Shown: positions 57,868-63,491 of the stretch, in pieces
How the letters are laid out: each line of letters opens with the position of its first letter
How positions within the stretch are numbered: the stretch's first letter is position 1
Origin: Comamonadaceae bacterium CG12_big_fil_rev_8_21_14_0_65_59_15
Lineage (GTDB): Bacteria > Pseudomonadota > Gammaproteobacteria > Burkholderiales > Burkholderiaceae_C
DNA: 64,000 nt
Direction: 5' to 3'
Assembly: GCA_002786915.1 (NCBI GenBank)
Contig: PCUV01000077.1
Coordinates: 1 to 64,000, forward strand
Position numbers and translations under genes: made by a program
Notes under the pieces: generated by a model
What the model was told of the DNA's origin: nothing
The model's input: only the letters and a program-made list of their open reading frames with translations
Databases searched by the model: none

Positions 57868-57914
57868 CAAACCCCAAATCGTTTGAATTGAATCGCCCAA
57901 ATCACCGCATAGCC

Positions 57915-58388
57915 ATGTCACTGATCACCACACTTTTTCCCTTGGGTTGGCTGCACTACCTGGCGGGCGGCCTGCTGATCGGCTGCGCGGTGGCGCTGCT
58001 GTTTGCCTTGACGGGCCGCGTGGGTGGCATGAGCACCGTGTTTTCCAGCAGCTGGTCGTGGCTGATAAAGACGCCCTATTTTTTGCAAGCGCGCTACACC
58101 GACTCGCGCGGCTGGCGCCTGGTGTACGCCGGCGGGCTGATGCTGGGTGCTGCGCTGTGGTGGGTGCTGGTGGACGGTGGCACACCCCAATCTACCCGGG
58201 TGTCCGCGTGGCAACTGTTGCTGGGAGGGCTATTGGTAGGCTACGGGGCGCGACTTGGCAATGGCTGCACCTCGGGCCACGGCATCTGTGGGCTGGGTTC
58301 GTTGCAATGGCCTTCGCTGCTAGCCGTGCTGACCTTCATGGTCACCGCATTTCTTAGCGCCAACACCCTAGGCCGCTGGCTGCCATGA
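57915..58388 (+). CDS. YeeE/YedE-family transporter half 1, 157 aa
   Basis: The protein has four to five hydrophobic segments and the family cysteine motif GNGCTSGHGICGLG. YeeE/YedE proteins move sulfur compounds such as thiosulfate; in this two-gene form each half has one Cys motif. The start is ATG 57915. It ends in ATGA overlap with half 2, so both are made together. Confidence 0.82.
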   Translation: MSLITTLFPLGWLHYLAGGLLIGCAVALLFALTGRVGGMSTVFSSSWSWLIKTPYFLQARYTDSRGWRLVYAGGLMLGAALWWVLVDGGTPQSTRVSAWQLLLGGLLVGYGARLGNGCTSGHGICGLGSLQWPSLLAVLTFMVTAFLSANTLGRWLP

Positions 58389-58810
58389 GTGCCCACACCA
58401 ACGGCTTTCAACAAGTGCTGGCAACGCTGGTTTGCGGTGCTTTGTTTGGTTTTGGGCTGGCGCTATCCACCATGATCCAACCTGAGGTCGTACTGCAATT
58501 TCTGCGCTTTGAAAACTATGGCCTGATGCTGGTGATGGGCGGTGCCGTACTGGTGACCGTGGTTGCGTACAAAGGGTTGCCACGCTTAACCACCACGCCA
58601 CTGCTGGGCGGTCAATTTCAGCAACACGCCAGCCAATGGAATCGCGACACCGCTATCGGTGCAGCCATTTTTGGCCTGGGCTGGGGGCTGTGCGGTGTCT
58701 GCCCCGGGCCGGCCATTGCCGCGCTGGGCGCTGGCAACTGGGATCTGGTTTATGCACTGGTCGGCATTGCCGTGGGTGCGCTGCTGCAGGGTGTCACCAC
58801 GCGTGGCTAA
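58385..58810 (+). CDS. YeeE/YedE-family transporter half 2 (DUF6691 type), 141 aa
   Basis: This half has its own motif, GLGWGLCGVCPGPAIAALG, and three to four hydrophobic segments. It begins in the ATGA overlap. Together the two halves match the single-chain YeeE fold. No sulfurtransferase gene is seen next to it, which is usual elsewhere, so the exact sulfur substrate is not told. Confidence 0.8.
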   Translation: MSAHTNGFQQVLATLVCGALFGFGLALSTMIQPEVVLQFLRFENYGLMLVMGGAVLVTVVAYKGLPRLTTTPLLGGQFQQHASQWNRDTAIGAAIFGLGWGLCGVCPGPAIAALGAGNWDLVYALVGIAVGALLQGVTTRG

Positions 58811-59186: not shown

Positions 59187-61157
59187 TCAAACCCGTAGTA
59201 GTTTTTCGAACTCATCCGCAGGCATAGGCCGCCCAAACAGGTAGCCTTGAAACATGTCACAACCGCGCGACTTCAAGTAGTCCAGTTGCGCCTGGTCTTC
59301 CACCCCTTCGGCCAGCACGGTGAGCCGCAGGGCGTGCGCCATGGCGATGATGGCGTTGACAATCTCCATGCCATCACGGTTCAGCGGAATGTCGTCGATG
59401 AAGCGCTTGTCGATTTTCAGGACGTTCAGCGGGAACAGCTTCAGGTAAGCCAGTGAAGAATAGCCGGTACCAAAATCATCAATCGCCAGGCGCACCCCCA
59501 GGCCTCGCATCTTGTTCAGCATCAAAATCGCTTGCGCTTCGCGCTGCATCAAGGCGCTCTCGGTCAGTTCCAGCTCCAGGTGTTCGGCCGGGTAGCCGGT
59601 ATCGCGCAGCACCTGGGCCACGGTTTCATCGATATCGTCTTTAAGAAACTGGTAGGGCGAAAGATTAACGGCCAGCGTCAGCGGTGCAAAGCCCGCCGCC
59701 AGCCAGCGCTGTCCTTGCAAGCAGGTTTGTTCCAACACCCAAGTGTCAATTTCATCGATCAAGCCGCACAATTCTGCCGCGTGGATAAAGCGCGCCGGCG
59801 CAATGAGTCCTTCCTGCGGCGACTGCCAGCGCACCAGCGCTTCAGCACCCACCATGCGACCACTGGCAATGTCCACCTGAGGCTGGTAGAACACCCGCAG
59901 CTCACCATGCGTGAGCGCATGGCGCAGTTGTACTTCAAGGTCAATGCGTTCGCGCGCCGCAAGGGTCAGGTCGTCCGAAAAAAACGCAAAGCACCCACGT
60001 CCTTGAGCCTTGGCTTTGTAAAGAGCGCTGTCTGCTTGTTGGAGCATCAACTCCGGCGTATTGCAATGGTCCGGGAAAATGCTGATGCCTACGCTGGCTC
60101 CGATACGCACTTGCACCTTGCTGCTCAAGGTATAGGGCTCGCTCAAGGCTTTGATCATGGCATTGGCAATGTTGCCGGCATCTTTGGCATCGCCCACATG
60201 GTTCAGCAGCACGGCAAATTCATCGCCGCCCAGGCGGCACACCAGGTCCACATCTCGGCGCTGTTCAAGCAGCCTGGCGGCCACGCCTTGCAAAACTTCG
60301 TCTCCGGCTGGGTGGCCCCAACTGTCGTTGACATCTTTGAAGCGGTCCAGGTCGAGCATCAGCAGCGCCATGAATTTGCCATCGCGCTGCGCTCTTTGCA
60401 TGCCATAGCTCAGGTCTGAGAGCAGTGAATAGCGGTTGGGCAACTGGGTCAAGGGGTCATGGTGCGCCAAAAAATCCAGCTCGGACTGGGTCTTTTTGAG
60501 CGCTGAAATATCCGAAAAAATGGCCACGTAGTTGCTCAGTTGCCCATGGGTGTCCTTGACGACCGAAATGCTCGCCAACTCCGGATAGATGTCGCCGCTT
60601 TTGCGCCGATTCCACAGCTCACCGCGCCAATTGCCTGTGCGTTTGATGCTGTCCCACAGGCGGGCATAAAACGCTGGGTCATGCCGCCCGGAGTGCAGCA
60701 GTGCCGGGCTTTTGCCCAGAATCTCGGCCTCGGTATAGCCGGTAATTTCTGTGAAGGCGTGGTTGATGCGCACAATGCAATTTTTTGCGTCTGTCACCAT
60801 CAGACCTTCTTGCGTACTCTCAAACACCGCTGCGGCCAAGCGCAAGCCCTGTTCAGACTGCTTGCGCTCGGTGATGTCACGCACACCAATCACATAGGCG
60901 CGCTGGCCATTCCAGGTAATGGGCGCGGAGCGCAATTCGGCCCAGCCAATGCCACTGGGCCAGATCAAGTTGATCTCGTGGTAGGCCGCGTCGTCTTTCA
61001 CCGGTATCGCCAAATCACGCCCGACCAAACTGCCGCGCTCAAAAATTTGCTCGGCGCTGGCGTTGGCATACAGCACCAGCCCGTGCTGATCCACCACCAC
61101 CACACCATCGGTGATGGACTGCAGGATCAGTTCCAGATCAATCGGGTCGGTGGGCAT
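59187..61157 (-). CDS. PAS-PAS-GGDEF-EAL c-di-GMP enzyme
   Basis: The protein has 656 residues. Two PAS domains (residues about 5-100 and 105-225) are followed by GGDEF (RLGGDEF) and EAL (AEALVRWQ, ELTESALM, DDFGTGYSSLAYL, KIDKRFIDDI, EGVEDQ, GYLFGRPMP) domains. The catalytic residues of both domains look intact, so it could make or break c-di-GMP. There is no I-site RxxD at the usual place. It lies 16 bp after the receiver-KaiB-like gene and is probably part of the same operon. Confidence 0.9.
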   Translation of the reverse strand: MPTDPIDLELILQSITDGVVVVDQHGLVLYANASAEQIFERGSLVGRDLAIPVKDDAAYHEINLIWPSGIGWAELRSAPITWNGQRAYVIGVRDITERKQSEQGLRLAAAVFESTQEGLMVTDAKNCIVRINHAFTEITGYTEAEILGKSPALLHSGRHDPAFYARLWDSIKRTGNWRGELWNRRKSGDIYPELASISVVKDTHGQLSNYVAIFSDISALKKTQSELDFLAHHDPLTQLPNRYSLLSDLSYGMQRAQRDGKFMALLMLDLDRFKDVNDSWGHPAGDEVLQGVAARLLEQRRDVDLVCRLGGDEFAVLLNHVGDAKDAGNIANAMIKALSEPYTLSSKVQVRIGASVGISIFPDHCNTPELMLQQADSALYKAKAQGRGCFAFFSDDLTLAARERIDLEVQLRHALTHGELRVFYQPQVDIASGRMVGAEALVRWQSPQEGLIAPARFIHAAELCGLIDEIDTWVLEQTCLQGQRWLAAGFAPLTLAVNLSPYQFLKDDIDETVAQVLRDTGYPAEHLELELTESALMQREAQAILMLNKMRGLGVRLAIDDFGTGYSSLAYLKLFPLNVLKIDKRFIDDIPLNRDGMEIVNAIIAMAHALRLTVLAEGVEDQAQLDYLKSRGCDMFQGYLFGRPMPADEFEKLLRV

Positions 61158-61173
61158 GAAGACTTACCCGCAC

Positions 61174-61863
61174 TTACAACACAATGGTGCCTGCACCCGA
61201 GCCGTTTTGCGCGGTAATCGCGGCCAGTACCGAATGCATTTTGGACAGGTTGCCCAGCAGTTTGAGCACCGGTTCGGGGATTTCCCGCACCAGCATGGGG
61301 GTGGCAAAGACGTCGTTCTCCAGGGCTTTTTCGGGCATGCCCAGCACTTCCACCACGTTCAGTGACCAAAACCCTGGCTGATAAGCCGATGCCAGCACCG
61401 CACTGAGTTGTTCCACAAATTGTTGAATCTCGGGGTTGACCGACACCACATACAAGTTCAGCAAAATCCGGTGCTCGTCGGCCTGCAGCGACTGGGTGCG
61501 TAGCGCCGACCGGGCAATGTGCCGGATTTGCGATGATGTGAGCGGTTTGTTGGCCAACTGAAACTTCAGCCCTTCGGACTGCACCGCCCTCAACTTGTCC
61601 AAAAATTCATGCGAGAACGCGGTGACGATGTAGATCGTCAGGGTGGCATCGTGTGCCAGCAGGCGGCGCATGGTCTCGATGCCGTCGATGCCGGGCATTT
61701 TCAGATCCAAAAAGATCAGATCTGGGCGCTGCGTCTGCGCCAGGGCAATGCCCTCCAGGCCATTTTCGGCGGTGCGCACCGTGCAGCCAATTTCACCCAA
61801 GACCAACGAGAAGGCGCCGCGTACCGCAGCGTCGTCGTCAATCACGAGAATTTCGTTTGTCAT
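61174..61863 (-). CDS. response regulator: receiver domain fused to KaiB-like domain
   Basis: The protein has 229 residues. Residues 1-120 are a receiver: ILVIDDDAAVR, FLDLKMPGIDG (phosphoacceptor Asp near 54), VTAFSHE and NKPLTSSQ. Residues about 135-220 read RILLNLYVVSVNPEIQQFVE and DVFATPMLVREIPEP, then VLKLLGNLSK. These line up with the KaiB core (LKLYVAGNTPNS..., ATPTLxxxLPxPxRRxIGDLS). The fused form has no DNA-binding or enzyme output, so the KaiB-like fold should be the output. It overlaps the kinase gene by 26 nt and precedes the GGDEF-EAL gene. Confidence 0.85.
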   Translation of the reverse strand: MTNEILVIDDDAAVRGAFSLVLGEIGCTVRTAENGLEGIALAQTQRPDLIFLDLKMPGIDGIETMRRLLAHDATLTIYIVTAFSHEFLDKLRAVQSEGLKFQLANKPLTSSQIRHIARSALRTQSLQADEHRILLNLYVVSVNPEIQQFVEQLSAVLASAYQPGFWSLNVVEVLGMPEKALENDVFATPMLVREIPEPVLKLLGNLSKMHSVLAAITAQNGSGAGTIVL

Positions 61864-63262
61864 TTTGTTTGTCTCCTTCCAACGAGTTGGCCACTTTCAT
61901 GGCGATGCAAAAACTTGTGCCAGCGGCTGGAAGGTTCTCCAGATAGACCGCGCCGCCCATTTGTTCCATCAGTTGGCGCGATACTGCCAGGCCTAAACCG
62001 GTTCCTTTGCCTACCGCTTTGGTGGTAAAGAACGGCGTGAACAACTTGTCGCGCACGCCGTTCGCGACACCCGGCCCGTTGTCGCTGATATGCAAGTGTA
62101 TGTCTGCATCGACCTGTTCGGCCCAGATCCGGATGCGCTTGTCAGCTTGCTCAGCCACGGCATCACGGGCGTTGAGCAACAGATTAAGCAGCACCTGCTG
62201 CAAACCACCCGAATGACAACGCACCATGGGCAAGTTGTCGGGCAAGTCAACAGCCAGCGTGATGTCGTGTTTTTTGAGTTCGCCGGCAAACAGGTTGAGT
62301 GCTTGTTGCGCCACCTGGGCAACGCTGCCTGAATCGGTGGCTGCTTTGTCGGGGCGCACAAACACCAGCATGTTTTGCACGATTTTTTTGATGCGGTGAA
62401 TTTCGTGCAGGGCATCGTCCAACACCTGCACCGACTTGGCATCGGTGGTTTTGTCGCGCACAAATTCAACGTAGCTCAGCAGGCCCATCAAGGGGTTGTT
62501 GATTTCATGCGCCACACCGCCCACCATGGTGCCAATGGATGACATCTTTTCAGCAAGCACCATGTGCGCGCGCGCTTCCATGTTCTCGTGGTATTGCTTC
62601 TGCGCCTGCAGGTCGTCGGCGCGCAGATGGGATGCCAGACGCTCCAGCACAGCACTTTTTTCCACCGCCAGCGCCTTGGCCAGCTCCTGGGCCTGGAGGC
62701 GAGCCTTGGCTTGCCGGTTCACCACTAGAGCTGCCGTGACGGACGCCAGCACCCCCAGCAGGCTCAACAGCACCATCCATGCCAGAAGCTGGTAGCGGGC
62801 GGTATTGTGGCTGGATTCGCTTTGCACCAGCAAACTTCGCTCATGGACAAGAAATTGCTCAACCTCGGCGCGCAATTCGTCCACGATGTCCCGGCCGACC
62901 CCGCCTTGCAGCCGAATTACTGCGCTGCGCGCATCGCCTTGCTGGGCCAAGGCAATGGTTTCGCCCAGGTCAGCCAATTTGGCATTCACCAAGCGGGTCA
63001 ACACATCCAGGCGCGGGTATGGCTCCTTCATGAGGTGGTGCAATAGCTGTAATTGGGTGGGTACCTCTTTCAGGGCTGTGCGGTAGGGCGCCAGAAACGC
63101 CTCATCGCCAGTAAGCAGGTAGCCGCGTTGCCCGGTTTCGGCATCTTTCATGCTCGACAACAGTGCGTTCGCCCTCTGGGTTGTCTCAGTGGCCGTTAAG
63201 CGCAGCTCATAGGCGGTCTCACTCTGTTGGTACTGCATCCAAGCCAGCCAGGCCACCAGCAC
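61838..63262 (-). CDS. CHASE3-type sensor histidine kinase, N-terminus probably truncated
   Basis: From GTG 63262 the frame has 474 codons. It contains a CHASE3 periplasmic sensor (ALLSSMKDAETGQRGYLLTG), a second membrane helix (LLAWMVLLSLLGVLASVTAAL), a HisKA domain (GGVAHEINNPLMGLLS) and an ATPase domain (N-box LLNARDAV, DNGPGV, GKGTGLGLAVS). The first membrane helix is cut short: the frame begins at VLVAWLAWMQYQQS and the bases before it look foreign. The open frame up to 63568 is non-membrane-like and overlaps the PIN-like gene, so it was not used. It is the first gene of the KaiB-like operon. Confidence 0.72.
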   Translation of the reverse strand: MLVAWLAWMQYQQSETAYELRLTATETTQRANALLSSMKDAETGQRGYLLTGDEAFLAPYRTALKEVPTQLQLLHHLMKEPYPRLDVLTRLVNAKLADLGETIALAQQGDARSAVIRLQGGVGRDIVDELRAEVEQFLVHERSLLVQSESSHNTARYQLLAWMVLLSLLGVLASVTAALVVNRQAKARLQAQELAKALAVEKSAVLERLASHLRADDLQAQKQYHENMEARAHMVLAEKMSSIGTMVGGVAHEINNPLMGLLSYVEFVRDKTTDAKSVQVLDDALHEIHRIKKIVQNMLVFVRPDKAATDSGSVAQVAQQALNLFAGELKKHDITLAVDLPDNLPMVRCHSGGLQQVLLNLLLNARDAVAEQADKRIRIWAEQVDADIHLHISDNGPGVANGVRDKLFTPFFTTKAVGKGTGLGLAVSRQLMEQMGGAVYLENLPAAGTSFCIAMKVANSLEGDKQNDKRNSRD

Positions 63263-63271
63263 CGTCAGGGG

Positions 63272-63297
63272 TCTTGGGGTCAGGTCTTGTATTGAGA
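63272..63297. other. probable junction of foreign sequence at the kinase 5' end
   Basis: The minus strand reads TCTCAATACAAGACCTGACC then CCAAG, and the kinase frame becomes family-like just after it. Such GACCTGACCCC ends are often seen at transposon-related repeat borders in betaproteobacteria (from memory). It suggests an insertion or deletion that removed the start. Confidence 0.35.
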
Positions 63298-63491
63298 GAT
63301 CGCCCCTCCTCCAGCCTGTCGGCACCCAGCTACCCAAGCAGCAGAATGTGAACGCCGACCCGCTGCTGGCACAACGCGTTGTGCCGCCAACCCCATGCGT
63401 TACCCATGCGCTGGCTTTATCTGGCAACCTCAGTGGCAGCGACCTGTGCCACCCTGTGGCCGCTGCATTGGGGTTAATTAATTTGGGAGCG

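Follow-up and report, generated by a model that had tools for sequence, protein, structure and literature searches.

What does a KaiB domain do at the end of a response regulator that is encoded between a sensor kinase and a c-di-GMP enzyme? This question is raised by an operon on the minus strand (59187-63262) of the window, the 64-kb stretch of DNA analysed here, which encodes a CHASE3 kinase, a REC-KaiB fusion and a PAS-PAS-GGDEF-EAL protein (Table 1). The first PAS domain of the last protein, designated PASk, is central to the answer proposed here.

Organization of the operon

The gene order, the strand, the 26-nt overlap between kinase and REC-KaiB genes (61838-61863) and the 16-bp gap before the PASk protein (61158-61173), all described in an earlier note on this DNA, were confirmed from the coordinates.

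Table 1. Coordinates of the operon and its domains within the window.
Feature	Position	Strand	Remarks
CHASE3 histidine kinase	61838..63262	-	HEINNP box, HATPase; 5' end may be truncated
REC-KaiB fusion, 229 aa	61174..61863	-	26-nt overlap with kinase
Receiver domain, phospho-acceptor D53	61573..61851	-	usual active-site residues present
Variable linker REC/KaiB, residues 118-132	61468..61512	-	alignment
KaiB domain, residues 133-229	61174..61467	-	Pfam match, profile, tree, fold search
PASk-PAS-GGDEF-EAL protein, 656 aa	59187..61157	-	GGDEF, I-site RxxD, EAL motifs
PASk, N-terminal short PAS domain	60828..61157	-	kept beside REC-KaiB in 54/57 loci
Second PAS domain, residues 117-218	60504..60809	-	domain match
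GGDEF domain, residues 231-388	59994..60467	-	domain match and motifs
EAL domain, residues 410-644	59226..59930	-	domain match and motifs
44-bp direct repeat copy, 5' edge of kinase	63263..63306	-	second copy at contig 64773-64816, beyond the window

The motifs of the downstream protein (RxxD at 301 with GGDEF, EAL at 439, ELTE, DDFG, EGVE and QG) mark it as a putative c-di-GMP enzyme. Its best NCBIfam match is the DibA phosphodiesterase NF045675 (721 bits, residues 69-651), and since this score lies under the equivalog cut-off of 980 bits the protein is placed outside the DibA family. We know of no link between DibA and KaiB.

The REC-KaiB protein

The earlier note read the C-terminal part of the receiver protein as KaiB, and sequence and fold agree with it. 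In Pfam searches, residues 5-97 match Response_reg (75.4 bits) and residues 137-211 match KaiB (35.1 bits, E 1.1e-8, cut-off 27); in a search of the source genome a single KaiB match was obtained, at 37 bits. A profile built from 18 fused KaiB domains matches solved KaiB structures with E 3.7e-12. An AlphaFold2 model of the KaiB domain by itself (17 alignment rows, mean pLDDT 69, below 50 at the 8 residues 52-59) gave KaiB chains as its top 16 Foldseek matches, with E from 7.4e-5 to 8.7e-4 and TM (query) of 0.54-0.59. The model of the whole fusion has pLDDT below 50 at residues 174-193, and receiver proteins alone were found among its best 50 rows in the fold search. Both models are weak in the half of KaiB that a fold switch would involve. 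The KaiB match in both sequence and fold rules out a plain trimmed receiver.

The receiver carries its acid pocket (D9/D10), D53, T81 and K106, all of which are invariant in a 17-row alignment. The fused KaiB domains form one group of 50 rows with support 100/100 in a tree of 90 columns, the bootstrap of which was unsettled at its end. Two observations bear on the fold state of the fused domain and point in opposite directions. The fused KaiBs mostly have Ala at positions 89 and 88, and among the PDB rows of the alignment Ala stands at 89 in 5jwo and at 88 in 5jwq; passages of two papers describe G89A/D91R KaiB as mostly fold-switched (PMC8059507, PMC6378743). Against this hint, the KaiB-only model is closest to ground-state KaiB rather than to the fold-switched form.

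Conservation of the module

The survey of REC-KaiB fusions and their neighbours suggested in the earlier note yielded 57 related loci in 56 genomes, which rules out a unique oddity of one genome. The fusion is present in 55 of the 57, a kinase lies upstream in 55 (absent in 2), and PASk lies downstream in 54 (missing in 3). These counts support the view that kinase, REC-KaiB and downstream protein are conserved as a unit. As downstream output, 42 of the 57 loci carry GGDEF-EAL, 10 a histidine kinase and 1 HD-GYP; sensor and effector domains are exchanged among loci while REC-KaiB and PASk persist. The idea of a KaiB module steering c-di-GMP survives in outline, as a REC-KaiB protein that shares its operon with a kinase and a putative c-di-GMP enzyme, but c-di-GMP as constant output does not, and a c-di-GMP-specific system is ruled out by the other outputs of 11 of the 57 loci. 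With histidine kinases at 10 loci and HD-GYP at 1, c-di-GMP is the commonest output rather than a constant one. The constant downstream partner is the first PAS domain, PASk, and not GGDEF-EAL.

No relatives were found in viral contigs. In a whole-protein search 526 plasmid and 29 phage records matched, all below 60% identity and, among the rows listed, mainly in the receiver; at 80% query coverage 2 plasmid records and 0 phage records were obtained.

Linkage of PASk to Kai genes

The idea that PASk belongs with KaiB came from loci fetched via KaiB, and it was followed up in a sample of 398 genomes not selected for KaiB, using a PASk profile built from REC-KaiB modules only. Candidates from a loose first look were scored, 12 per genome. 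The profile gave 46 further matches of at least 40 bits, spread over 25 genomes. For 42 of these, KaiB or KaiC is found within 8 kb, and 4 are not near Kai genes; the 46 are not independent events because many of the genomes with PASk beside Kai genes are related. Among 89 genomes of the same genus, a PASk score of at least 123 bits was reached by the 5 with REC-KaiB and by no other, the next best score being 29.7 bits. Related PAS domains also adjoin ordinary kaiBC in other families.

Many Kai loci are without PASk. The PASk score exceeded 20 bits at one only of 14 Kai places fetched, and of the 33 genomes in the phylum sample that have KaiB, 10 lack PASk at 40 bits or more (compared by hand, with 12 candidates scored per genome).

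Proposed mechanism and alternatives

We propose a two-component relay with KaiB as its output domain, in which a phospho-gated KaiB docks on PASk and steers the enzyme behind it, and assign this reading a probability of roughly 55%. Its sequence-level part is established: a kinase is encoded next to the fusion, the receiver is complete and joined to KaiB, and the downstream protein starts with PASk. In the relay, the neighbouring kinase would phosphorylate D53 of the receiver. In the off state KaiB would be held by its own receiver, much like the beta2 strand of fold-switched KaiB on the pseudo-receiver of cyanobacterial CikA, and phosphorylation would either free KaiB or shift its fold. The free KaiB could then dock on PASk and modulate the enzyme that follows it, which would be GGDEF-EAL, and so c-di-GMP, in this operon and HD-GYP or a histidine kinase elsewhere. 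Operons of kaiBC with PASk outputs probably rely on this KaiB-PASk contact as well. A wider proposition, to which we give somewhat less than even odds, is that KaiB serves fundamentally as an adaptor for a single PAS subtype, PASk, and not only as a regulator of KaiC; the KaiB-PASk contact would then convey the output in many Kai systems outside cyanobacteria, and in REC-KaiB modules it would have been freed from KaiC and placed under two-component control.

The strongest competitor, which we nonetheless regard as unlikely, has the KaiB domain make no contact with PASk. KaiB would instead determine how the phosphorylated receiver oligomerizes or how long it persists, or would feed back on the kinase, and PASk would be a ligand sensor that was simply passed on together with the operon. 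Co-inheritance by itself accounts for linkage within one operon. In addition, the KaiB-only model looks like the ground state of KaiB crystals, some of which are named tetramers, and there are the three loci with no PASk neighbour. It fits poorly with the persistence of PASk while the rest of the protein swaps among three effector types, and the PASk-like domains beside kaiBC in other families are hard to derive from the inheritance of one operon.

It is much less probable that KaiC has remained the target of REC-KaiB, which would then feed into a Kai timer. The absence of a KaiC gene from the window, pointed out in the earlier note, extends to the source genome, in which three matches to the KaiC-ATPase family were the only ones found (47.1, 37.2 and 22.1 bits), with frame lengths that presumably suit RadA, RecA and another NTPase. 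Of the 56 module genomes, searched through up to 55 loose-first-look candidates each, 41 gave no KaiC, a result weakened by the many drafts among them. KaiC is present in the other 15, in one as a fragment, and PASk also adjoins kaiBC, both of which would suit a KaiC input; in these 15, however, kaiC is either on a contig other than that of the module or separated from the module by 37 kb or more. Moreover, conserved basic residues of KaiB are lost in the fusions: position 11 is T in 98% of 50 fused rows versus R/K in 89% of 111 stand-alone KaiBs, and position 74 is L in 94% versus R in 74%. We take these two basic positions to matter for KaiC binding.

The N-terminus of the kinase is unsure. 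Its start at 63262 is the exact edge of a 44-bp direct repeat, the open frame extends to 63568, and the stretch above 63262 in this frame was judged non-coding. The two repeat copies (91% identical, spacing 1510 bp) bracket two genes, one of excisionase type and one weakly PIN-like, and a hydropathy scan found no membrane helix before CHASE3. In the source genome the kinase gene abuts a cassette repeat at its 5' end, which may be truncated; that the unit is decaying there, its relay no longer sensor-driven after loss of this end to the cassette, is nevertheless improbable in view of three open frames with REC, GGDEF, EAL and HK motifs present and of a family conserved as a whole.

Comparison with known systems

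The earlier note suspected an undescribed system, and indeed no description of the REC-KaiB module was found in what the open-licence PMC literature offered. Cyanobacterial Kai output factors are largely missing outside cyanobacteria, as stated in part of PMC5520375. For Kai signal output there, PASk is a concrete candidate partner, and the module supplies small pairs to test. Being mostly KaiC-free, it lets the role of KaiB be studied apart from KaiC, and if the relay is true, a fold-switching protein serves as a response-regulator output.

Several known systems share one feature or another with the module. Excerpts on the kaiC-kaiB-PAS/HK operons of Rhodopseudomonas and Rhodobacter (PMC4794148, PMC6627678) and on kaiBC with HK or GGDEF/EAL downstream (PMC3164672) describe a PAS protein or such an output encoded after KaiB; as presented in these excerpts, they have KaiC and a stand-alone KaiB without receiver fusion, and the PAS type is not singled out. 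The cyanobacterial KaiB-4, or 'elongated' KaiB, also bears an extra N-terminal domain, which the relevant passage of PMC10808063 gives as of unknown homology, whereas the domain here is a canonical receiver. In cyanobacteria, according to sections of PMC6378743 and PMC12632262, fold-switched KaiB binds the pseudo-receiver of CikA. KaiB meets a receiver-fold domain in that case too, but the partners are separate proteins, the receiver is a pseudo-receiver, and the complex is strengthened by KaiC. Synechocystis KaiA3, as portrayed in part of PMC11372060, likewise joins a receiver with a phosphorylatable Asp to a Kai-protein domain; there a KaiA-like part is attached, which functions together with KaiB3 and KaiC3. 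In the present module the attached domain is KaiB, and in most of the genomes KaiC is not found.

The three genes and the kinase edge

Frame and domain searches place three genes on the minus strand (see table). The earlier note took the 229-aa protein for a receiver joined to KaiB, and both domains were indeed matched, the receiver at 75.4 bits and KaiB at 35.1 bits (cut-off 27). A motif check found the phospho-site D53 of the receiver with its partners D9/D10, T81 and K106; the kinase motifs, GGDEF with I-site and the EAL motif are all found in the operon. The N-terminal short PAS domain of the downstream protein, at window 60828-61157, is called PASk here. Two Sulf_transp (sulphur-transport-type) genes of 166 and 141 aa (window 57888-58810, plus strand) point towards the operon's end.

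Coordinates of the operon genes and of the repeat beside the kinase
Feature	Position	Strand	Basis
PAS-PAS-GGDEF-EAL protein, 656 aa	61157-59187	-	frame + domain search
REC-KaiB, 229 aa	61863-61174	-	frame + domain search
CHASE3-HisKA-HATPase kinase	63262 to 61838, open frame to 63568	-	frame + domain search
44-bp direct repeat, inner copy	window 63263-63306		contig sequence
44-bp direct repeat, outer copy	contig 64773-64816 (locus L105:9774-9817)		contig sequence

The repeat copies are 91% identical at a spacing of 1510 bp and bracket a two-gene cassette: an excisionase-type HTH DNA-binding gene (39.2 bits) and a second gene with weak PIN likeness (17 bits, where the cut-off is 170). The inner copy ends at 63263, exactly at the start of credible kinase coding, and the kinase in this genome may be without its first membrane helix.

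Identity and fold state of the fused KaiB

Searched with a profile built from 18 fused KaiB domains, the solved structures yielded KaiB at E 3.7e-12 and no other protein below E 0.3. In the AlphaFold2 model of the whole fusion the receiver is confident and residues 174-193, in the fold-switch half, have pLDDT <50. Structure prediction had been proposed as a check of the C-terminal domain; the model of the KaiB part only (17 rows, mean pLDDT 69) retrieved KaiB chains at all of Foldseek ranks 1-16 (E 7.4e-5 to 8.7e-4), which bears out the assignment. These are the older cyanobacterial KaiB crystals, with fold-switched KaiB from rank 17 on.

Fifty fused KaiBs were compared with 111 stand-alone ones, using T. 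elongatus numbering via the PDB row. P51, A54, P63, L65, P70, P72, G78, L80 and S81 are common to the fused rows too. The basic residue at position 11 is gone from these (T in 98%), as is R74 (L in 94%), and W at 40 (100%) and E at 46 (98%) are novelties. Position 89 is Ala in 76% of fused versus Gly in 66% of stand-alone KaiBs, and Ala at 88 (84%) is likewise new. Excerpts of PMC8059507 describe KaiB G89A/D91R as mostly fold-switched (Keq 6.7 vs 0.08), and an I88A KaiB was used in a KaiB-KaiC crystal, according to part of PMC6378743. Judged from sequence, Ala at 88/89 hints at a bias of the fused KaiB to the fold-switched state, whereas the AlphaFold2 model points in the opposite direction.

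Distribution and architecture of the module

The fusion was found in 5 of the 89 genomes of the genus at 149-215 bits, the four relatives being 69-79% identical in the KaiB part; ten more gave weak matches alone (≤40.4 bits). No further strong match was found in samples of the family (299 genomes), class (369) and phylum (398), where 18, 19 and 32 other genomes matched at best at 38.7, 41.3 and 47.4 bits, respectively. A genome-contig scan yielded 16 loci, including three already known from the genus, in MAGs of Gallionellales, Comamonadaceae, unclassified Proteobacteria and Methylococcaceae, and in Methylobacter (M. luteus, M. marinus and M. tundripaludum among them), Methylocaldum and Methylomicrobium. 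Of the 237 genomes in the family to which M. tundripaludum belongs, 80 match, 45 at no less than 136 bits; the remaining matches comprise three places at 78-103 bits and others at ≤54. In a KaiB tree of 161 rows and 90 columns, whose bootstrap was unsettled, the 50 fused-type rows, including the split loci L239 and L240, lie on one side of a single branch (100/100).

For the search for further fusions and their neighbours, also proposed earlier, 57 loci from 56 genomes were read, annotated and then counted. One frame holds REC and KaiB in 55 loci, the exceptions being L239 and L240, split and rearranged. In this variant, from two genomes of the Methylobacter family, an N-terminal half of KaiB is fused ahead of a second receiver, and rec and kaiB occupy separate frames. 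A same-strand kinase core precedes REC-KaiB in 55 loci (absent in L226 and L235; merely a piece at the contig edge in L122), and in 54 the downstream protein opens with PASk (the exceptions are L113, L236 and L237). The sensor is a Ser/Thr-kinase-AAA-GAF giant in 41 of the 57, CHASE3 in the window, and PAS or no named domain elsewhere. The giants are ~1,700 aa long and combine a Ser/Thr kinase with AAA_16, GAF and histidine-kinase parts; they occur at L113-L121 and most of L224-L261. One of the loci (L231, genome G1171) carries a tandem pair of REC-KaiB genes followed by a single PASk-GGDEF-EAL gene.

Steering of c-di-GMP, the output proposed earlier, fits the 42 loci with GGDEF-EAL behind PASk but not the ten with a histidine kinase, whether or not it carries a receiver, nor the one with HD-GYP; in one more PASk locus the part behind PASk is cut by the contig end.

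KaiC in the host genomes

In the window genome, 4.34 Mb in 118 contigs at completeness 100, KaiB is matched once. The genome's three KaiC ATPase family matches reach 47.1, 37.2 and 22.1 bits (frames of 462, 391 and 522 aa), against best matches of 138-245 bits in the ten same-genus genomes with ordinary KaiB; hence no KaiC was found in this genome, which extends the earlier observation on the window alone. With presence called at >90 bits, KaiC occurs in 15 of the 56 module genomes (1 of 5, a fragment; 4 of 13; 10 of 38) and was not found in 41. By coordinates, in those 15 either KaiC and the module are on different contigs or no less than 37 kb separates them.

PASk and Kai genes

Among the 89 genus genomes, the five that carry REC-KaiB, and no others, gave PASk scores of 123-235 bits; the rest scored ≤29.7 bits. 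With a module-only profile, a few PAS domains adjoining ordinary kaiB in the collected loci reached 41-59 bits and all other frames ≤26. Since these loci had been collected through KaiB, the profile was run on 398 genomes of the phylum at a threshold of ≥40 bits. Beyond the window genome (165.7 bits), 46 matches were obtained in 25 genomes of several families, yet many of the hosts are kin to one another. KaiB and/or KaiC lies within 8 kb of 42 of them, PASk typically forming the N-terminal domain of a kinase or GGDEF protein encoded behind kaiB and kaiC. Of the four exceptions, one sits at a contig edge (G926:C81), one lies 8.4 kb from KaiB (G849), and the other two are in genomes G776 and G808. 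Both of the latter score in the range of 45-47 bits and have no Kai gene within 40 kb or in the stretch covered; G776 (L332) has KaiC 47 kb away on the same contig, and G808 (L334) no Kai gene near.

The link is not universal: PASk at ≥40 bits is absent from 10 of 33 KaiB-bearing genomes of the phylum sample, compared by hand, and among 14 Kai places examined L272 alone exceeded 20 bits (47 bits). At L272 (genome G762) a PASk-PAS-GGDEF-EAL gene comes after ordinary kaiB-kaiC; REC-KaiB is present in the same genome.

Proposed mechanism

The genes are linked, the receiver carries its phospho-site, the KaiB is a true one, and sensors and effectors are swapped round a near-constant REC-KaiB and PASk. 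We propose that the kinase would transfer phosphate to D53 of the receiver, which would otherwise restrain its own KaiB; binding of the KaiB beta2 strand by the CikA pseudo-receiver, described in portions of PMC6378743 and PMC12632262, is a precedent for such restraint. Phosphorylation would release KaiB, and the released KaiB would dock on PASk and so control the enzyme behind it. The whole chain is put at slightly better than even (about 0.55).

Comparison with known systems

Full-text searches of open-licence PMC turned up no description of a receiver fused to KaiB, of a KaiB module lacking KaiC or of a KaiB-linked PAS subtype, in keeping with the earlier view of the operon as a candidate for an undescribed system. 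On the KaiC result the module is filed as a two-component system whose output is KaiB, rather than as a Kai clock. In the parts of the sources available, kaiC-kaiB-PAS/HK operons (PMC4794148, PMC6627678), kaiBC with HK or GGDEF/EAL neighbours (PMC3164672) and an 'elongated' KaiB-4 (PMC10808063) are already described, as is KaiA3, which joins a receiver to a KaiA-like domain and has KaiB3 and KaiC3 as partners (PMC11372060).
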